Under the pieces are notes generated by a model that saw only the letters and a list, made by a program, of their open reading frames with translations, was not told the DNA's origin and did no database searches. Positions 5,824 through 15,056 of a stretch of DNA of 64,000 nucleotides are shown piece after piece. How positions within the stretch are numbered: the stretch's first letter is position 1; every line of letters starts with the position of its first letter. Source of the DNA: Flavobacterium panacagri (GTDB taxonomy: Bacteria > Bacteroidota > Bacteroidia > Flavobacteriales > Flavobacteriaceae); the NCBI RefSeq assembly GCF_030378165.1, contig NZ_CP119766.1:930001-994000 (forward strand), read 5' to 3'. A program made the position numbers and the translations under genes.

Positions 5824-5850
5824 GCCGCGAAGGCGCTAAGACACTAAGTT
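5824..5850. repeat. GCCGCGAAGGC-type dispersed repeat fragment
   Basis: The sequence GCCGCGAAGGCGCTAAGAC and its tail directly after the GT51 stop belong to the same family as copies near 23364, 28976, 40737 and 42484 (GCCnCGAaGGC...CAAAG...). It is non-coding. Confidence 0.5.
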
Positions 5851-5857
5851 TTTTTCT

Positions 5858-6022
5858 CCTGCAAGGTTTTCAAAACCTTGTAGGCGTTATCCTTTTTACT
5901 TCTACATACTTATTACCTACGGCGCGAAGCTTTTTTCTCCTGCAAGGTTTCCAAAACCTTGTAGGTGTTATCCTTTTTACTTCTACATACTTATACCTAC
6001 AAGGTTTTGAAAACCTTGCAGG
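5858..6022. repeat. Tandemly duplicated palindromic repeat element
   Basis: Three palindromes lie here: 5858-5884, 5939-5965 (both CCTGCAAGG...CCTTGTAGG) and 5996-6022 (CCTACAAGG...CCTTGCAGG, opposite orientation). The 5850-5922 stretch is repeated at 5931-6000 with a period of 81 bases. In the first copy the right palindrome stops after CCTAC and is replaced by GGCGCGAAGC. The element lies between convergent genes. The same family recurs at 14599, 15393 and 45020. Confidence 0.8.
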
Positions 6023-6034
6023 AAAGGAAACGAA

Positions 6035-6784
6035 TTATTTAAAGTTCTTTAGGAATTCTTCTTTATAAGTTGGCGAAACTTCAATTTCAGCACCATCATT
6101 AAGCGTCACGATTCCACCTTTGTTATACGATTTCACGCAATTGATATTGATGATATGCGATTTATGAACCCGAATAAAAGGCAGAGGCAAAATCTCTGAA
6201 AAATGCTTCAGGAAACGGCAGACCATTTTTTTACTTCCGTTGTTGAGATGCAAATCGGTAAAATTTCCGTTACCACGAAGTCGTACTATTTCTTCCATTT
6301 TTACGACTTCAAAACCTTCAAGCGTTGGAAGAATCACTTGTTGTTTTTCTGGTTTTTGCTCGTGGAAATTCTCAACAATAATTTTATTTCTGTTGAAGAT
6401 TTCATGATTCATAATTTGATGCTGAACCTTATTTACCGCTACAATCAGCTCTTCAATACTAATTGGTTTTAAAAGATAATACGCGGCACTTTGATTCAAA
6501 GCTCGAAGCGAATATTCAGAAAATGCCGTGACAAATATGGTTTCAAAATGCAAGTCTTTGCAGGCTTCCAAAACATCAAAAGCATTTCCGAAAGGCATTT
6601 CGACATCCAGAAAAACCAATTGTGGGTTCAGTTCGTGAAGCAAAGGAACCGCTTCTTTGATATTCTGCGCTTCGCCAATAACCTCAACCTGCGGACAATA
6701 CTTACTCAAATAATTTTTGAGCACTTCTCGCGCAGCTAGTTCATCTTCTACAATTACACTTTTTATCTTTTGGAGCGTCATCAT
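6035..6784 (-). CDS. LytTR-family response regulator
   Basis: This is a cytoplasmic DNA-binding response regulator. The receiver domain (about 8-125) has the acidic pair Glu13/Asp14, the phosphoacceptor Asp60 in VFLDVEMP, and the conserved Lys in LLKPIS. The C-terminal LytTR domain (about 148-249) has the family pattern ending in RVHKSHIININCVKSY. Its ATG overlaps the stop of the histidine kinase gene by 4 bases (ATGA), so the pair is translationally coupled. Likely targets are the two plus-strand promoters 8657-8723 and 9720-9786, which carry tandem sites 21 bp apart, as LytTR proteins prefer. Confidence 0.93.
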   Translation of the reverse strand: MMTLQKIKSVIVEDELAAREVLKNYLSKYCPQVEVIGEAQNIKEAVPLLHELNPQLVFLDVEMPFGNAFDVLEACKDLHFETIFVTAFSEYSLRALNQSAAYYLLKPISIEELIVAVNKVQHQIMNHEIFNRNKIIVENFHEQKPEKQQVILPTLEGFEVVKMEEIVRLRGNGNFTDLHLNNGSKKMVCRFLKHFSEILPLPFIRVHKSHIININCVKSYNKGGIVTLNDGAEIEVSPTYKEEFLKNFK

Positions 6785-8601
6785 ATTTTGTCAATTAATG
6801 GAAAAACAATTTGAACTATTGTCCCAGATTCCAGTCCTTCTTTTTCTACAATTCTAAATGTAATTTCCTTTTTATACAATTCATTCAAAAGCGCAATTCG
6901 TTCTTTGGTATTGTTTAGACCTCTGGATTCGTATATTTTTTGGTTTTTTGTTTTGAGTTCACCGCTTTTGGTTAAACCAATTCCGTTGTCTTCAATGGTA
7001 ACGATGATTTTACCATTTTTATAATCAAATCGCAAAGACAAAAATCCTTTTTTATCCAAATAACGTAATCCGTGCCAGATGGCATTTTCAAGATGAGGCT
7101 GTAAAATCATATTCGGAACAAAAACCCTTTCCGGGTCCAGCGAATCATCAACCGTAATTTCAAAATCAAATTTATCTTCAAAACGGAGATGTTCTAAATC
7201 CAGATATTTCTTGAGCTGTTCTACTTCTTTATCCAGAGAAATAAAATCCTTATTGGAATTCTCCATCATATTCCGCATCAAATTCGAATAAGACGTCAAA
7301 TATTTATTAGCTTCCAATTCTTTGTTTTCCGAAATAAACTGATTGACGCTATTCAAACTATTAAAAATAAAATGCGGATTCATCTCACGACGCAATGACT
7401 GCAAAGCGATTTCTTTATTTTTAATTTTAATAGAATACAAAGCTTTTACAATAAACAAAAACAAAAGCAGTAACAACCCAACTGAACCAATCAGGAAATA
7501 ATTGAAGGTATTTTTCTTCGAAATCAGTTCGTCTTTCAGTGTTTTTTCTTTTTCCAACTGACGGATTTTTTCTTCTGTGATTTGGAAAGTCTTCGCATCA
7601 ATCAAAGTAGTATCAGAATGAATCAGTCTGTCGAAATTTTCAAAAAATTGTTCGTACAAAACCATACTTTCTTTATCCTGACCTTTGGTTTTGTAGTATT
7701 TAACCAAAGATGATAAACTCTTTTTGGCTTCCGCCGAATTTCCTTTTTGAAAAGACAAATCATACGCTTCTTTTAATGATGAAATCGCCTTCTCAGGTTC
7801 TTTCTTTTCAAAATAAAGGGATGAAAGCGATTGAAGCTGTTTTATTTCGGTTGTATAATCTTTATTTTTTCTGGCTTCTGCCAATATTTTTTCGCTTATC
7901 AGAAGCGCTTTATCAAACTGATTGTCTTCGGCATAAACTTTAGCAATTTCGTTTTTGATTTTTATAGCTTCTTCAGGTTTATTTTTGGTATAATCTAAGG
8001 CTTTGTTGTAACTCTCAATCGCTACTTTTTTATCATTTAACTGAAGTGAATTCTGCGCTTTCTGTACATAAGCTTCTTTAACTTCGCCTTTTTTGTTTTC
8101 CTTTTTCAGTAAATCAATATTCGAATCCACATAATCTGCCTGACTTGCCGGATCGGACTGATTTTTTAAACGGTTGGCATCATTTAAATTGATTTTTTCT
8201 TCAACTGCATCTTTTGTCAACGATCCCGCTTTTTCATAGTTTTTAATCGCCGAGCCAAAGTTTTTCTGATTTTCCTGTGCTTTAGCAAGACTTCTGGTAA
8301 CACGGGTTTTGTCTTCTGTCAGTTTTAATTTAGTATAACTGTTTAACGCTCTTTTATAGTATTCTTCTGCTTTGGCATTATCTCCTTTATTCAAAAATTC
8401 ATTAGCCAGTTTTTCGTAATTCTGAGCAATTTTCGATTCATCGTTATCATCAAGTGATTTGGATAATTCTTCTGCCGTTTTACTGATTTTGGTACTGCTT
8501 TTCTCCATTTTTTTGTCAGGAATAGCTTGTGCTGTCATTCGCTGTGGAACTAACAACACTAAAAAAAACAGACTAAAAACAATTAACACACTATGCTTCA
8601 C
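6781..8601 (-). CDS. LytS-type sensor histidine kinase with periplasmic TPR region
   Basis: This is the inner-membrane sensor partner of the adjacent LytTR regulator. Order: signal peptide (about 1-25, ending in TAQA); TPR-like helical repeats (about 50-330) that would face the periplasm; one membrane segment (about 368-392); a His_kinase domain with phosphoacceptor His410 in EMNPHFIFNSLN; and an HATPase domain with an N-box (HLENAIWHGL) and glycine box (IEDNGIGL). The signal it senses is unknown, but TPR repeats suggest a protein ligand. It is transcribed away from the SIMPL gene, leaving a 145-bp divergent intergenic region. Confidence 0.92.
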   Translation of the reverse strand: MKHSVLIVFSLFFLVLLVPQRMTAQAIPDKKMEKSSTKISKTAEELSKSLDDNDESKIAQNYEKLANEFLNKGDNAKAEEYYKRALNSYTKLKLTEDKTRVTRSLAKAQENQKNFGSAIKNYEKAGSLTKDAVEEKINLNDANRLKNQSDPASQADYVDSNIDLLKKENKKGEVKEAYVQKAQNSLQLNDKKVAIESYNKALDYTKNKPEEAIKIKNEIAKVYAEDNQFDKALLISEKILAEARKNKDYTTEIKQLQSLSSLYFEKKEPEKAISSLKEAYDLSFQKGNSAEAKKSLSSLVKYYKTKGQDKESMVLYEQFFENFDRLIHSDTTLIDAKTFQITEEKIRQLEKEKTLKDELISKKNTFNYFLIGSVGLLLLLFLFIVKALYSIKIKNKEIALQSLRREMNPHFIFNSLNSVNQFISENKELEANKYLTSYSNLMRNMMENSNKDFISLDKEVEQLKKYLDLEHLRFEDKFDFEITVDDSLDPERVFVPNMILQPHLENAIWHGLRYLDKKGFLSLRFDYKNGKIIVTIEDNGIGLTKSGELKTKNQKIYESRGLNNTKERIALLNELYKKEITFRIVEKEGLESGTIVQIVFPLIDKI

Positions 8602-8656
8602 AACAAATAATTTAGAAAATGTAAAGTAACCTAATTTCAGATTCCCATCCTATATC

Positions 8657-8723
8657 TTTCACCAAGTCAAACGGCCTGTTGACCCATTCTGCCAAAAATA
8701 CGTTTTTTCCTGCAATACATTTG
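8657..8723 (+). promoter_or_regulatory. Candidate LytTR operator plus promoter of the SIMPL gene
   Basis: Two direct repeats, TTTCACC at 8657-8663 and GTTGACC at 8678-8684, are 21 bp apart (two helical turns). A -7 box TACATTTG lies at 8716-8723, its first base 34 bp after the ACC of the second repeat. No good -33 TTG is visible, as expected of an activator-dependent promoter. The whole 67 bp aligns without gaps to 9720-9786, with 46 identical positions. Binding by the neighbouring regulator is inferred. Confidence 0.65.
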
Positions 8724-8746
8724 TTTCCGAATCAAAAATCAAAATC

Positions 8747-9709
8747 ATGAAAAAACTATTCTTATCTCTTTTTATCATTCTATTTTCTCAGTTTGTAGTT
8801 GCACAGGTTTCAGGAAATGTCAATTATCAAAATCATTATAATGACCAAAATAGCATTAACATCAATTTTCCTTCTAACGATGGTATTGTCGCAAGTGTAA
8901 AAGGACTTGCCAATGTTAAAGCAGATTCTTATACCGCTATTTTCAGCACCACTCAAACCGGCAAAACAACCAAAGAAGTCAACGAATTACTTGACCAGAG
9001 AATTACACAGGCGCTGAACGAAATCAAACTTAAAAAAGGCGTTGAAACTTTTGTCGATATGATTTCGTTTGTTCCGGTTTATGAATATGAAACTGAAAAA
9101 AAAGTATTCAGCCGAAAAACTTATAACGAAGTTCCGACTGGATTTGAATTGAAGAAAAACATCTACATTAAATTTTCGGATCCAAATCAGTTAAATGAAT
9201 TTATTTCCATTTTATCCAGTAATGAAATTTACGATTTGGTGCGCGTAGATTACTTTTCAAATGCTTTGGAAACCATCAAAAAAGAAATGATGGCCAAAGC
9301 CAGACTGCTGATTCAGGAAAAAATAAAAAACTATGAAATTCTTCTTGGCGAAACCTTTACAAACGCCGAAAAAAGAATTGCTGATGATTTCATTGTAAAC
9401 TTACCCGTAGAAATGTATCGATCTTATGAGGCATACAACAGCTCCTCTTTAAACTTAAAAAGGAATTCAAATATTAACCAAGCTACCAAATCGACTACAC
9501 TTTATTACCAGCCGGTTTTTGGTAAAGAGTTTGATTTTATCCTTAATCCTTCGGTTTTAGAACCTGTTATTCAGGTACAATATGAAGTAAAAATTGTTAT
9601 TAACAGAGAAAAGAAACAAAATGTAAAAGGAGACAAAGAGTTTATTCTGGTTACACCAAATGGCGATTTAAAAACTTTAAATATTAATATGACAAAACAA
9701 AACTATTAA
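8747..9709 (+). CDS. Periplasmic SIMPL-domain (DUF541-like) protein
   Basis: This is an exported protein with a signal peptide at residues 1-19 (MKKLFLSLFIILFSQFVVA). The body resembles SIMPL/DUF541 proteins: a strand ...VKGLANVKADSYTAIFS... followed by a helix with paired residues (TTKEVNELLDQRITQAL) and later KEMMAKARLLIQEK. SIMPL proteins are periplasmic or outer-membrane oligomers of mostly unknown role, often linked to stress. An unusual internal insert (about 225-255) is rich in Asn and Ser. It is the first gene behind the candidate LytTR operator, and a second copy of that operator follows its stop. Confidence 0.7.
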   Translation: MKKLFLSLFIILFSQFVVAQVSGNVNYQNHYNDQNSININFPSNDGIVASVKGLANVKADSYTAIFSTTQTGKTTKEVNELLDQRITQALNEIKLKKGVETFVDMISFVPVYEYETEKKVFSRKTYNEVPTGFELKKNIYIKFSDPNQLNEFISILSSNEIYDLVRVDYFSNALETIKKEMMAKARLLIQEKIKNYEILLGETFTNAEKRIADDFIVNLPVEMYRSYEAYNSSSLNLKRNSNINQATKSTTLYYQPVFGKEFDFILNPSVLEPVIQVQYEVKIVINREKKQNVKGDKEFILVTPNGDLKTLNINMTKQNY

Positions 9710-9719
9710 GCTGAGACCA

Positions 9720-9786
9720 TTTCACCAAGTCAAAAGCCCGTTTCACCCTTTGTCCGAAAAATAGGCCTTTTTTGTTTCTAAGTTTG
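9720..9786 (+). promoter_or_regulatory. Candidate LytTR operator plus promoter of the VWA gene
   Basis: Direct repeats TTTCACC at 9720-9726 and 9741-9747 are 21 bp apart. A -7 box TAAGTTTG lies at 9779-9786, again 34 bp beyond the second ACC. The first 15 bases are identical to 8657-8671. The arrangement, in a separate intergenic region, shows that the two promoters form a matched pair. Confidence 0.65.
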
Positions 9787-9816: not shown

Positions 9817-10977
9817 ATGAAATCAAATCTTTTTATTTCCGCACTATTTGCAATTGCATTTTCTATCACAAGCTGTCATTCTTCCAATGACAAACCAAAA
9901 CCGAAAACTGAAATCGAAAAACCGGCAACAGCTTCCAACACTAAAATACAAGTTGCCCTTTTGCTGGATACTTCGAGCAGTATGGACGGTTTAATCGATC
10001 AGGCAAAATCACGATTGTGGAATATTGTAAATACGCTGACCACTTTAAAATATGAAGGAAAAACACCTGATATCGAAATTGCTTTATATGAATATGGCAA
10101 TGATGGACTTTCTGCAAAATCAAACTTCATCAGACAAATAACACCGCTTTCAACCGATTTGGATTTAATTTCTGAAAAACTGTTTGCGCTTAGAACCAAC
10201 GGCGGAAGTGAATATTGCGGAGCCGTTATTCAGGATGCAACGAAAGATCTGAAATGGGCATCAGAAAACAGCAGTATGAAACTGATTTATATTGCAGGAA
10301 ACGAAGAATTCAATCAGGGAAAAATCAGTTACAAAGAAGCGATTAGCAATGCTTTAAAAAATGGTATTTATGTAAATACTATTTTCTGCGGTAATAAAAC
10401 CGAAGGCATCAACATTTTTTGGAAAGACGGCGCAGACCGCGGAAAAGGAAAATATTTCAATATTGATTCAGACAAAGCGGTAGAATATATCGCCACTCCG
10501 TATGATGATGAAATTGCCAAATGCGATGAAAAAATGAACAAAACCTACATCAATTACGGAGCAAAAGGAGCTGATAAAAAAATGAATCAGATAAAGCAGG
10601 ATCAAAACGCAAAAATGGTTTCAGCTTCAAATTATACAGACCGTGCCGTAAGTAAATCCAAAGCAGTTTATAAAAACGACAGCTGGGATTTGGTTGACAA
10701 AGTAAAAGACGATGCAGGAGCTATTTCTAAAATCAAAAAAGAAGAATTACCAACAGAATTGCAAAACAAATCGACTGCAGAATTGCAGAAAATAGTAACT
10801 GAAAAGACAAAAGAAAGAGAAACCATCCAGAAAGAAATCAGCGTTTTGGCCAAAAAACGTCAGGAATATATTGATACGGAATCTAAGAAAACCAAAAAGC
10901 AGGATGATTTAGGCAATACTATCAATTCATCTATAATAGCTTTTGCCAAAGTAAAAGGTTATACCGTTGAGAAATAA
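9817..10977 (+). CDS. VWA-domain lipoprotein
   Basis: This is a predicted lipoprotein with lipobox Cys20 (SITSC). A von Willebrand factor A domain follows, with the metal-ion-dependent adhesion motif DTSSSMDG beginning at Asp51. A Thr for metal binding may lie in the ALRTNGGSEYCG region (about 127-138). The C-terminal 70 residues (about 310-375) are charged and probably coiled coil. VWA domains usually mediate protein contact, so a scaffold or sensor role at the envelope is plausible but not shown. It has its own LytTR-like promoter and sits 8 bases before the L,D-transpeptidase gene, forming an operon. Confidence 0.85.
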   Translation: MKSNLFISALFAIAFSITSCHSSNDKPKPKTEIEKPATASNTKIQVALLLDTSSSMDGLIDQAKSRLWNIVNTLTTLKYEGKTPDIEIALYEYGNDGLSAKSNFIRQITPLSTDLDLISEKLFALRTNGGSEYCGAVIQDATKDLKWASENSSMKLIYIAGNEEFNQGKISYKEAISNALKNGIYVNTIFCGNKTEGINIFWKDGADRGKGKYFNIDSDKAVEYIATPYDDEIAKCDEKMNKTYINYGAKGADKKMNQIKQDQNAKMVSASNYTDRAVSKSKAVYKNDSWDLVDKVKDDAGAISKIKKEELPTELQNKSTAELQKIVTEKTKERETIQKEISVLAKKRQEYIDTESKKTKKQDDLGNTINSSIIAFAKVKGYTVEK

Positions 10978-10985
10978 ATTGGTGT

Positions 10986-11609
10986 ATGAAAAGCAACCTT
11001 TTCTTTTTCTTCTTGCTCTCGATTTTCTGCACCGCATTTGCCTGTAGAAATAAAGAAGAAAAACCAACAGTCAGTAAAAGTTCAAAACCGATTTATTCCT
11101 ACGAAGAGAAACTAAAAAATGAAGTCACTGAAATCAGGAGATTCTTGGGGAAATCTCCGAAATACAATTCAGATGTTGCTTTCTTTTTAGACATGAAGAT
11201 AGAATCCGGAAGAAATCGGTTTTTTGTTTATGATTTGAAACACAACAAATTACTAGATAAAGGTTTGGTTGGACATGGTTCTGGTTCCGAAACTGGCATT
11301 TATGGAGAATTGAAATTTAGCAATGTCAAAAATTCCAATTGCAGTTCGCTTGGCAAATACGCCATTGGTGGTTCCTATACAGGAAGATTTGGAAAAGCCT
11401 ATAAATTATACGGTTTAGATAAAAGCAACAGCAATGCCTTTGATCGAAATATAGTCCTACATAAATATGAAGATATTCCGTTTGAAGAACAGCGATATCC
11501 AATCTGCAATAGTTTAGGATGTCCTATGGTAAATGAAAAATTCTTCAATGTACTCGAAAAACAGATTGATAATTCTAAAAAGAAAATTATCTTGGTAATG
11601 TATTATTAA
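10986..11609 (+). CDS. L,D-transpeptidase-like lipoprotein (YkuD_2 type)
   Basis: This is a predicted murein L,D-transpeptidase-family enzyme anchored as a lipoprotein (Cys20 in TAFAC). The signature Cys lies in CNSLGCPMV, matching the S-x-G-C catalytic motif, with an upstream VGHGSGSETG segment and a His in VLHKYED. The 207-residue length suits the YkuD_2 (PF13645-type) group. Such enzymes make or edit 3-3 peptidoglycan cross-links or attach proteins to peptidoglycan; which applies here is unknown. It begins 8 bases after the VWA gene, so it should respond to the same promoter. Confidence 0.82.
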   Translation: MKSNLFFFFLLSIFCTAFACRNKEEKPTVSKSSKPIYSYEEKLKNEVTEIRRFLGKSPKYNSDVAFFLDMKIESGRNRFFVYDLKHNKLLDKGLVGHGSGSETGIYGELKFSNVKNSNCSSLGKYAIGGSYTGRFGKAYKLYGLDKSNSNAFDRNIVLHKYEDIPFEEQRYPICNSLGCPMVNEKFFNVLEKQIDNSKKKIILVMYY

Positions 11610-11672: not shown

Positions 11673-13301
11673 ATGATTAAAAAATTAGTAACGATACTCC
11701 TACTTATGCTGTGTTCATGCGTATTTGCGCAAAAACCTGTTTTCACAACTGCAAAAGTAAAAGCAGCAACAGTGTACTTTAATGCAGCCGAAATATTAGA
11801 GACTGCAAATGTTGTTTTACCAATAGGAACCTCTGAAATAGTGATTAAAAATGTAGCCGTAAACTTAAATGAAAGTTCTATTCAAATTGGAGCACCTACA
11901 AATGTAACAGTACTTTCAGTACAGTTTACCAATAATTATATTTCAGAATATGAAACCGATTCACAATCACCATTACTAAAAAGAGTACGAGACAGTATTA
12001 CTTTAGTTCAAAAGGAAATTCAAAAAGTAAATAATGCTATTAATTCTGAAACAAAAACAATCCAGCTGTTAGATAAAAACCAGCAGATTTCCGGAGCTAA
12101 TTCTGGACTAAATGTGGCTGAGTTGATGAAAATGGTGGAATATTACAAGAACAAACAACTTGAAATTTCCAATAACATCAACAACCTTACAGAAAAAAAG
12201 CAAAAATTGGATCAGACACTCCAAAAATTAAACAACAAACTGGAAATAAATACCGACAAAGAAGAACAAACTTCGTCTGGAAAATTGATTGTTCAGGTAA
12301 TGAATAATCAGACAGGAAATGTTCCGTTAGAAATATCTTATTTGACTAATAATGCTTCCTGGTCACCTTTTTATGATTTGAGAGCCGAAAGTGTAAATGC
12401 ACCAATCAATATGATGTACAAAGCACAAGTCGTTCAAAATACAGGAATTGAATGGAAAAAAGTAAAACTTACTTTATCAAGCGGTTATCCTAATCAAAAT
12501 AATCAGGCTCCAATTTTAAGCTCATGGTTTTTGAGAAACAATGTTAATTATGGCTACAATCAAAGAGCTGTTATGAATCAACTGCAAAGTGTTGGGGCAA
12601 TGAAAGCTAAAAAGGAAAGCAGTGATCTTAATTATAGTGCAGAACCAATTATGGCAGAATCCACAATTTCTGATTACACAACAGTGGCAGAAAACCAGCT
12701 TAATATTTCTTTTGACATTGATATTCCGTATGATATTTTATCGAATGGAAAAATTCACAGTGTCTCTTTGAAGGAAATAAAACTCCCTGCTACGTACAAA
12801 TATTATGCTGTTCCAAAAGTAGAAAATGATGCTTTTTTACTGGCTGAAATTGCAGATTACAGTAAATACAATTTACTGCGTGGCGAAGCTAATATTATTT
12901 TTGAAGGCATGTATGTGGGTAAGACTTTTATTGAGCCAAACCAAACCAGCGATACTTTGAATCTAAGTATGGGGCGTGATAAAAAAGTATCTATTAAAAG
13001 AGAAAAAGTTGCCGATAAATCAGGAACTAAATTTTTATCTGCCAGAAAAGAACAAACGTTTACGTTTGACCTTACCGTAAGAAACAATAAAAAAGAAGCT
13101 GTTGAATTGATCTTGAAAGATCAATATCCATTGAGCACAAACAAGGAAATTGAGGTAGAACTTCTGCAAAGTGATGGTGCCAAAGTCAATTCAGAAACTG
13201 GAATCCTTACTTGGCAGTTACAGCTAAAACCAAATGAAACTAAAAAATTCAGAATTAGCTACAGAGTAAAATACCCGAAAGATCAGATTCTAAATTTATA
13301 A
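11673..13301 (+). CDS. MuiA-like envelope protein (DUF4139)
   Basis: This is an exported 542-residue protein resembling 'mucoidy inhibitor MuiA family' proteins. A signal peptide (about 1-19, ...VFAQ) is followed by an N-terminal DUF4140-like beta domain, a coiled coil (about 105-200, rich in Q, K, N) and a DUF4139 domain recognisable by ASWSPFYDLRAE and GIEWKKVKLTLSSG, ending in a beta-rich tail. Molecular function is unknown in the family. It lies 63 bases after the L,D-transpeptidase gene; that gap contains an AT-rich inverted repeat (ATGATAT...ATATCAT, about 11617-11640). A strong terminator follows. Confidence 0.8.
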   Translation: MIKKLVTILLLMLCSCVFAQKPVFTTAKVKAATVYFNAAEILETANVVLPIGTSEIVIKNVAVNLNESSIQIGAPTNVTVLSVQFTNNYISEYETDSQSPLLKRVRDSITLVQKEIQKVNNAINSETKTIQLLDKNQQISGANSGLNVAELMKMVEYYKNKQLEISNNINNLTEKKQKLDQTLQKLNNKLEINTDKEEQTSSGKLIVQVMNNQTGNVPLEISYLTNNASWSPFYDLRAESVNAPINMMYKAQVVQNTGIEWKKVKLTLSSGYPNQNNQAPILSSWFLRNNVNYGYNQRAVMNQLQSVGAMKAKKESSDLNYSAEPIMAESTISDYTTVAENQLNISFDIDIPYDILSNGKIHSVSLKEIKLPATYKYYAVPKVENDAFLLAEIADYSKYNLLRGEANIIFEGMYVGKTFIEPNQTSDTLNLSMGRDKKVSIKREKVADKSGTKFLSARKEQTFTFDLTVRNNKKEAVELILKDQYPLSTNKEIEVELLQSDGAKVNSETGILTWQLQLKPNETKKFRISYRVKYPKDQILNL

Positions 13302-14451: not shown

Positions 14452-14487
14452 AAGATGCTGAGTTGCTAAGATTCTAAGGTTCTAAGT
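14452..14487. repeat. AAGATGCTAAG-type dispersed repeat
   Basis: The stretch AAGATGCTGAGTTGCTAAG plus ATTCTAAGGTTCTAAG matches the family also seen inverted at 14722-14760 and direct at 29479-29516. It is non-coding and lies directly upstream of the aldo/keto reductase. Confidence 0.6.
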
Positions 14488-14598
14488 TTCCCTCACTTTG
14501 TTTTTAATTTTTAATTGAAGAAGCACAAATGTACGAATGGATTTTTCAAATCTGAATTTGAAAAAGGTTAAAAAAAGTACAAGATTTTTTCGATCTCT

Positions 14599-14680
14599 CC
14601 TGCAAGGTTTCCAAAACCTTGTAGGTGTTTCTTTTATTGCAAACGAACATATACCTACAAGGTTTTGGAAACCTTGCAGG
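14599..14680. repeat. Paired-palindrome repeat element (BIME-like)
   Basis: Left palindrome 14599-14625 (CCTGCAAGG...CCTTGTAGG) and right palindrome 14654-14680 (CCTACAAGG...CCTTGCAGG) are joined by a linker ending in GCAAACGAACATATA. The same element and linker recur at 15393-15473. Short open frames across this region are repeat artefacts. Confidence 0.85.
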
Positions 14681-14685
14681 AAAGC

Positions 14686-14722
14686 AAAAAGGGTCCAAAG
14701 TAAAACTTTGAGCCCTTTTTTA
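14686..14722. terminator. Terminator-like hairpin next to the repeat
   Basis: AAAAAGGGTCCAAAG pairs with CTTTGAGCCCTTTTTT (one mismatch, one G-T wobble). It follows the palindromic element directly, as a related hairpin does at 15480-15511. It lies beyond the 3' end of the toxin remnant on the minus strand. Confidence 0.7.
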
Positions 14723-14760
14723 AATCTTAGCATCTTAGTATCTCAGAACCTTAGCAACTT
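14722..14760. repeat. AAGATGCTAAG-type dispersed repeat, inverted copy
   Basis: The sequence CTTAGCATCTTAGTATCTCA and following bases is the reverse complement of the 29479-29516 copy. It ends 3 bases before the stop of the toxin remnant. Confidence 0.6.
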
Positions 14761-14763
14761 AAT

Positions 14764-15056
14764 CTATTTCAAACTTTTTAACGGATTTTGATATGCATTA
14801 AAAATTCTAACCACAAAAATCGAATCCTCTTTAATCTGATACAAAACTTTATATTTTCGAATTACAATTCTACGACAATCCATTCTATAATCATCAATTT
14901 GAAATTGCTCAGGAAAAGTAATTTTATCAGTAGAATGGTATAATTCTTCTCTAATTTTTAAAGCAGTTTCTTTAGAATAACTTTCTTCAAATACAAGTAA
15001 ATATCTTTTAAATCCAGTTTGGCACTTTCACTCCAAAAAACTTCTAATTTACTCAT
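14764..15056 (-). pseudogene. ParE/RelE-type toxin, frameshifted
   Basis: No intact frame exists, but reading across one lost base gives a 97-residue RelE/ParE-like toxin. The first frame begins MSKLEVFWSESAKLDLKDIY and soon hits a stop. The next frame continues FEESYSKETALKIREELYH and ends in RKYKVLYQIKEDSIFVVRIF plus NAYQNPLKSLK, a classic ParE tail. The break is at about 14988-14994, where TATTTG probably replaces TATTTTG; the 293-base length is one short of a whole number of codons. The start overlaps the antitoxin stop by 8 bases. It could be a real decay product or a one-base assembly error. Confidence 0.8.

Follow-up and report, generated by a model that had tools for sequence, protein, structure and literature searches.

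A kinase-regulator pair and two similar intergenic blocks

The window, by which we mean the whole 64,000-bp stretch of Flavobacterium panacagri DNA that was analysed (positions 930001-994000 of a genome consisting of a single contig of 5.98 Mb), carries on its reverse strand the gene for a LytTR response regulator of 249 aa (6035..6784), which we propose as the protein binding both operators described below. The regulator combines a receiver domain (Response_reg, PF00072, 6.6e-16) with a C-terminal LytTR domain (PF04397, 1e-12), both above cut-off, and is thus a LytTR response regulator by domain content. Its FhRhHRS-type motif reads FIRVHKS at residues 203-209, with F, R, H and S shared by all of 9 sequences and K rather than R at the sixth position (N in AgrA); among the solved-structure matches listed, all 56 fall on the receiver part. 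The regulator gene overlaps by 4 bp with that of a sensor kinase with TPR repeats and a His_kinase domain (6781..8601, reverse strand; PF06580, 1.7e-20), an adjoining partner of the LytS/His_kinase type that is transcribed divergently from the first operator. On the forward strand there follow a SIMPL (DUF541) protein, predicted to be the first regulated unit (8747..9709; PF04402, 2.6e-9), a VWA-type lipoprotein, predicted to open the second (9817..10977), an L,D-transpeptidase lipoprotein 8 bp after the VWA gene (10986..11609; PF13645, 9.4e-36) and, 63 bp after the transpeptidase, a MuiA-family protein (11673..13301; TIGR02231, 1.3e-81). Both lipoboxes were recognised by eye. The gene calls of the preliminary description, which had been made from the letters alone, were upheld by domain matches for regulator, kinase, SIMPL protein, L,D-transpeptidase and MuiA family, whilst the VWA call is weak: the window protein matches VWA_2 at E = 0.0045, below cut-off, and has no match at E ≤ 1 among solved structures; its orthologue from Dysgonomonas (L221) exceeds the PF00092 cut-off. 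The description of the regulator as the only LytTR gene holds for the window, but in the genome it is one of 21.

A 67-bp block recurs without gaps upstream of the SIMPL gene (8657-8723) and of the VWA gene (9720-9786), just as had been reported, with 46 of 67 positions identical and with block starts that precede the start codons by 90 bp and 97 bp, respectively. Aligning the two blocks on the ACC repeat places the distal half-site of operator 1, TTTCACCAAGTCAAA, at 8657..8671 and its proximal half-site, GTTGACCCATTCT, 21 bp further on at 8678..8690, all on the forward strand; in operator 2, also on the forward strand, the distal half-site is TTTCACCAAGTCAAA at 9720..9734 and the proximal one TTTCACCCTTTGT at 9741..9753. 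In both blocks the second ACC lies exactly 21 bp after the first, as claimed previously, but the hexamer containing it had been given as TTKACC and is in fact TTSACC (TTGACC and TTCACC). The claim that a TAnnTTTG box follows the second ACC, 34 bp from its A to the first base of the box, proved correct for both blocks: these candidate -7 promoter boxes are TACATTTG for the SIMPL gene (8716..8723, forward strand, +59 from the operator start) and TAAGTTTG for the VWA lipoprotein unit (9779..9786, forward strand, located with the pattern that includes the -7 box). The half-site consensus is TTTCACCAAGTCA, with the second copy more degenerate, and the period of 21 bp corresponds to 12 bp between 9-mers in the two blocks. 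Sites of LytTR regulators are described in passages of PMC11347149 as direct repeats of about 9 bp that stand 10-13 bp apart, a geometry to which the spacing of the blocks conforms, as the preliminary description had proposed.

The operator pattern within the genome

A search of the 5,976,098-bp genome with the 28-bp core of the operator at up to 3 mismatches returned exactly two places, against none for the reversed control; the pattern extended by the -7 box gave the same result at this threshold, with exactly two sites, each at 0 mismatches, and none in the control. The possibility raised beforehand that such blocks occur at random across the genome is therefore not borne out. The half-site pair alone is less selective: at up to 3 mismatches it occurs in 37 places versus 22 for reversed-pattern controls, comprising the two blocks at 0 mismatches, four places at 2 and the remainder at 3. 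Whether any of these other places marks an additional regulon member was considered, and the idea was rejected, as none was left once the -7 box was demanded (≤3 mismatches). A candidate third copy at 15026 of the window was likewise discarded: second only to block 2 in its similarity to block 1 (39 of 67 identities), it is apparently a chance match of AT-rich sequence. Upstream of the MuiA-like gene, a search of the window with the pattern including the -7 box gives no separate operator.

Co-occurrence of operator and regulator

Among 199 genomes of the genus, 41 carry an orthologue of the regulator, with a clean identity gap from 80% down to 41%. The closest relatives of the regulator are found in Flavobacterium, those of F. 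quisquiliarum and F. phragmitis being 100% identical in the best tblastn segment. The 28-bp core (≤3 mismatches) occurs at 42 places in 32 of the 199 genomes, compared with 9 matches for the reversed control, and 41 of the 42 places fall within the regulator locus. It is present in 31 of the 41 genomes with the regulator and in 1 of the 158 without it (Fisher 1.8e-26), the single exception (G144) being a match with 3 mismatches. In the genus loci (40 fetched from other genomes, plus the window) 49 operators were counted at up to 5 mismatches, which left out two genomes whose sites have 6 mismatches (G078 and G149); the refined pattern, written after these two sites were known, takes them in and yields 51 operators in 41 of 41 loci, every one with its -7 box at +59. 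The first ten positions of the operator are close to invariant in the 49 operators: eight show a single base throughout, and the remaining two are C in 44 and G in 47.

We then turned to named GTDB genomes, using the best 80 of 269 relatives of the regulator. With the refined pattern an operator is found in 80 of 80 of these loci, all with a regulator of at least 80% identity, so that the expectation that the pattern lies upstream wherever the system has been kept held up; this set consists of closely related species, many of them common to the genus set, and the counts are hence not independent. The 109 operators of the named loci all contain TTnAC at +22, which is part of the refined criterion, and all lie just upstream of the putative target promoter, as LytTR operators do, the -7 box being at +59 in 106 of them and at +60 in 3 (Bacteroides sp. 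519, Prevotella sp. 10(H) and Dysgonomonas UBA7710, whose regulators are 80-82% identical to that of the window). Operators were sought with this pattern only 1.5-4.5 kb from the regulator end, matches at other positions serving as background count: without the -7 box, the half-site pair gives 4 further matches in 1.07 Mb of flanking sequence, plus 1 on the reverse strand. On the kinase side, 79 of the 80 named loci have a short element, GTAAA[GA], at -36 or -37 relative to the operator; in the window the corresponding element is TTACTTTAC (8621..8629, reverse strand).

Orthologues of the VWA gene are present in 39 of the 199 genus genomes, two of which (G090 and G166) lack the regulator orthologue. 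Neither has an operator, the best nearby core match showing 8 mismatches; both loci are without a kinase match, and the neighbourhood of the VWA gene is a similar one, with MuiA-type and aldo-keto reductase genes following it. This control is small (n = 2), yet it indicates that the site accompanies the regulator and not the target gene. The operator adjoins the regulator gene, however, and linkage alone could explain their joint inheritance.

Downstream genes vary around a constant operator

The operator persists although the genes downstream of it differ among species. Two operators are present in all 27 named loci that encode an orthologue of the window SIMPL protein (>60% identity), whereas among those without it 51 have one and 2 have two; in one of the latter type of arrangement (L219), two tandem small-lipoprotein genes have one operator each. 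In other loci the first gene encodes a cyclase-like toroid, another SIMPL protein or a rhodanese. The recurrent core is the kinase-regulator pair with the operator, usually accompanied by the VWA gene, with SIMPL as an optional unit that brings its own copy of the operator. For the window, the SIMPL and VWA genes plausibly belong to the predicted regulon, together with the L,D-transpeptidase gene, which probably shares an operon with the VWA gene; membership of the MuiA-like gene is unproven. Elsewhere, an operator-like site with 4 mismatches precedes a second MuiA-like gene (L216), and a site with the 21-bp period precedes a MuiA-like gene in L333.

As a separate observation, the operator stands in five Flavobacterium loci (L206, L209, L212, L217 and L219) before Thr/Glu-rich lipoproteins of 64-69 residues, not SIMPL or VWA, and these small proteins are duplicated in four of the five.

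Distant relatives and the half-site of each regulator clade

Relatives of the regulator were sought in 395 genomes of the phylum, 395 of the class and 299 of the family; from the overlapping lists, 11 of 11, 32 of 37 (one locus per genome) and 36 of 140 loci were read, in total 71 outside the genus. Beyond the kinase, 55 of these have a divergent gene of the VWA, SIMPL, rhodanese or MuiA type, 9 a divergent gene without such a label and 7 a gene that is not divergent. In the 71 regions between kinase and next gene, the mean best match between two ten-base segments was 8.34/10 at a lag of 21 and 6.3-7.0 at all other lags from 12 to 42. At lag 21, 28 regions reach 9/10 as against 1.5 expected in shuffles, the next best lags giving 6, and 43 stay under 9/10. 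With a loose half-site expression, 36 of the 71 regions show a pair at lag 21 and 35 do not, whereas lags 17-20 and 22-25 give pairs in 0-1 regions; the expression was written after the sites were known, the control being its use at other lags. For one locus (L293) the lag analysis used the wrong kinase-to-gene region, and its site was found separately. In a sibling family of the order (f2), the half-sites are near-perfect TTCACCAAGT repeats, in which the direct repeat is easier to recognise than in the window blocks. Three distant loci (L303, L325 and L327) appear by eye to have three half-sites in 21-bp steps and not two.

A midpoint-rooted tree of 82 regulators, from which L343 was excluded as too short, separates a clade containing the window regulator from 35 rows of other Flavobacteriaceae genera with support 100/100, and the window clade spans several families and orders. 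Half-sites differ accordingly between the clades, with ACCAA in the window clade and ACTCA in the other. All 14 window-clade loci outside the genus have ACC in at least one half-site, three of these sites being weak and relocated. In the other clade a lag-21 pair is present in 29 of 36 loci (loose pattern, with C, T or G as third base of ACC), its half-site cores being CTCA, CGCA, CTAA or CGAA, plus CCAA in one half of L347. Two genera of Flavobacteriaceae, the host family of the second clade, carry a window-clade regulator (L295 and L296), and their sites are of the ACC type: within one host family, site type thus appears to follow the regulator clade. Part of this match is accounted for by inheritance as a cassette, site and regulator being linked. 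Residues that might determine specificity were also considered (columns differing between the clades, e.g. 173, 175, 189-191 and 210), but these are confounded with phylogeny and we make no claim for them.

The three loci of one family (f87: L291, L292 and L294; regulators 65-70% identical) have no adjacent VWA gene. Their best operator matches, with 5-6 mismatches each and the best within ~11 kb on both strands, lie 89, 90 and 90 bp before a gene for an exported-looking protein of 556-571 aa, which is on the other strand beside the kinase and has no match to the query set. The suggestion that the operator has been relocated in this family is suggestive only.

The regulators of four distant loci (L218, L220, L221 and L280, from records titled Bacteroides, Prevotella or Dysgonomonas and from genome G538) are 80-82% identical to that of the window, compared with 42-50% for matches in other genera of its own family, except two at 73-74%; this suggests horizontal transfer of the cassette. 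Tentatively, and with somewhat more doubt than confidence, we consider that kinase, regulator and operator could together form a transferable sensing cartridge that moves across orders of Bacteroidota and into which envelope genes are plugged by operator copying. The payloads would be SIMPL, VWA, MuiA-like and rhodanese proteins, the cyclase-like toroid, the L,D-transpeptidase and the tiny Thr-rich lipoproteins, with an unrelated exported protein also plugged in within one family; the Flavobacterium regulator would be of a foreign type, grouping with regulators of other orders, other genera of the family would carry the second clade in its place, and each type would have its own half-site. Were this reading true, the payload would amount to a previously unrecognised module of envelope maintenance.

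Comparison with known LytTR systems

In E. coli BtsR (YehT) and YpdB, the copies of the repeat start 21 bp apart, as counted in the oligonucleotides given in PMC4847170, which is the same period as in the window, and the BtsR site likewise has ACC in both repeats. The window system differs from both in its half-site (TTTCACCAAGTCA), its Bacteroidota -7 promoter and its TPR kinase, and also in its targets, which are pyruvate-linked transporter genes for BtsR/YpdB and predicted envelope proteins here. AgrA of Staphylococcus shares with it the FhRhHRS-type LytTR motif and two direct repeats upstream of the promoter, according to portions of PMC4227749, but recognises another sequence, and its promoter-proximal repeats are centred near -60, whereas we estimate the proximal ACC of the window near -45. 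Repeats at about two helical turns are found for RcoM and CoxC too, there in threes as in some of the distant loci noted above by eye; these are one-component sensors, and CoxC represses (sections of PMC11347149), in contrast to the two-component system of the window. In the LytTR regulatory systems HdrRM and BrsRM, repeats mostly 12 bp apart stand just upstream of the promoter and the regulator feeds back on its own operon (parts of PMC6193735); there, the regulator is paired with an inhibitory membrane protein, whereas its partner in the window is a histidine kinase, which places the window system outside this class. The best NCBIfam match of the window regulator is BtsR, at 97.5 bits against an equivalog cut-off of 246, and it is hence not a BtsR orthologue by this measure.

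In genome G136, which we take to be F. johnsoniae UW101, the only regulator match at E ≤ 1e-40 is just ~36-37% identical, so that this strain appears to be without the window system. We therefore rejected the idea that the window pair is the one in which mutations were reported in an evolution experiment with F. johnsoniae UW101 (FJOH_RS09515, LytTR, and FJOH_RS09520, kinase; PMC10197871). The FJOH LytTR gene was not found in 100 kb of G136 around a position estimated from locus tags. Table 2 of that paper has one or other of these neighbouring tags mutated in five of five co-evolved lines, and the authors appear to discuss the LytTR gene only.

Among the matches listed in a literature search covering titles and the beginnings of abstracts, with few subscription papers, we found no operator or regulon of a LytTR regulator from Bacteroidota, and the regulon predicted here is apparently undescribed.

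Proposed mechanism and alternative explanations

With the anatomy, exclusivity and invariance of the blocks, their co-occurrence with the regulator and the half-site differences between regulator clades established, we consider it very likely that the blocks are promoters that each carry a tandem operator of the neighbouring LytTR regulator, which would bind there and probably activate; the initial interpretation as tandem LytTR operators next to a LytTR system gains support from the spacing, the exclusivity and the 80 of 80 loci. TAnnTTTG is the sigma-A -7 consensus of flavobacteria, located at -12 to -5 (from passages of PMC9723704). Transcription would on this basis start near +71 of the block, with the ACC triplets near -45 (proximal) and -66 (distal). 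The -33 zone is without TTG in 46 of 49 operators; a TTG is expected at this position, and its absence fits an activator-dependent promoter. According to a passage of PMC11347149, LytTR regulators are mostly activators that bind upstream of -35, and the position of the repeat, the missing TTG and this usual mode of action together favour activation by a regulator dimer over repression, a preference that derives from position only. The two half-sites would lie on one helix face, 21 bp apart, and end immediately before the stretch occupied by RNA polymerase. In response to a signal, perhaps from the envelope, the TPR-containing kinase would phosphorylate the regulator, which would then bind the repeat as a dimer and recruit polymerase, so that the two promoters would drive the SIMPL gene on the one hand and the VWA lipoprotein and L,D-transpeptidase genes on the other. 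In the window the GTAAA[GA] element, TTACTTTAC when read on the strand of the kinase gene, could plausibly serve as the -7 region of a divergent kinase promoter; autoregulation is thus possible, and the kinase-side operator may feed back on transcription of the kinase-regulator pair.

The most serious alternative, which we nevertheless judge unlikely, is that the regulator represses, or mainly controls its own kinase-regulator operon, with the SIMPL and VWA genes transcribed from a constitutive promoter. In its favour, every one of the 80 named loci has an operator upstream of the kinase, 79 of them together with the kinase-side element, and a LytTR repressor is known in CoxC (PMC11347149, in part); the CoxC site described there, however, overlaps -35, whilst the window repeat is further upstream, and the lack of TTG in the -33 region of 46 of 49 operators speaks against a promoter that fires unaided. 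In addition, the added SIMPL unit comes with a second operator in 27 of 27 loci, from which it follows that the site serves the downstream genes. Much less probable is that the block belongs to another regulator encoded elsewhere, either one of the other LytTR proteins or an unrelated factor, with the adjacent regulator a mere neighbour. The genome does offer 20 further LytTR genes for this role, but the site is missing in both genomes in which the VWA gene is present without the regulator, it is absent from 157 of the 158 genus genomes lacking the regulator even though 31 of these 158 carry a paralogous match at E ≤ 1e-40, and the half-site varies with the clade of the neighbouring regulator.

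Two further explanations strike us as hardly credible. The 46 of 67 identities and the pair of blocks in SIMPL loci might be the trace of a recent, functionless duplication of an intergenic segment, yet both copies are retained in 27 of 27 SIMPL loci, half-sites and -7 spacing stay constant while the DNA between varies, and single-copy loci retain the same site. The blocks are conserved intergenic sequence upstream of genes, as a structured RNA leader or riboswitch would be; the conserved pattern, however, is a direct repeat, and since all of it precedes the -7 box by a fixed distance, it would be outside the transcript from that promoter. If the blocks are operators of the adjacent regulator, as we favour, a precise operator with natural variants is available for one of the 21 LytTR genes of this genome, and little-known genes (SIMPL, the VWA lipoprotein and perhaps the MuiA family) are tied to one sensor, which makes both gene function and LytTR site choice directly testable. 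The two regulator clades, which differ in their half-sites but share the 21-bp spacing, constitute a natural specificity experiment.

Repeats elsewhere in the window

A 78-nt segment is repeated in tandem (5836-6030, 91% identical) and contains a 27-nt near-palindrome, CCTGCAAGGTTTTCAAAACCTTGTAGG, of which a third copy lies at 5996-6022, next to the end of the regulator gene. Similar palindromic stretches, judged by eye, may underlie the overlapping frames at 14482-14791.
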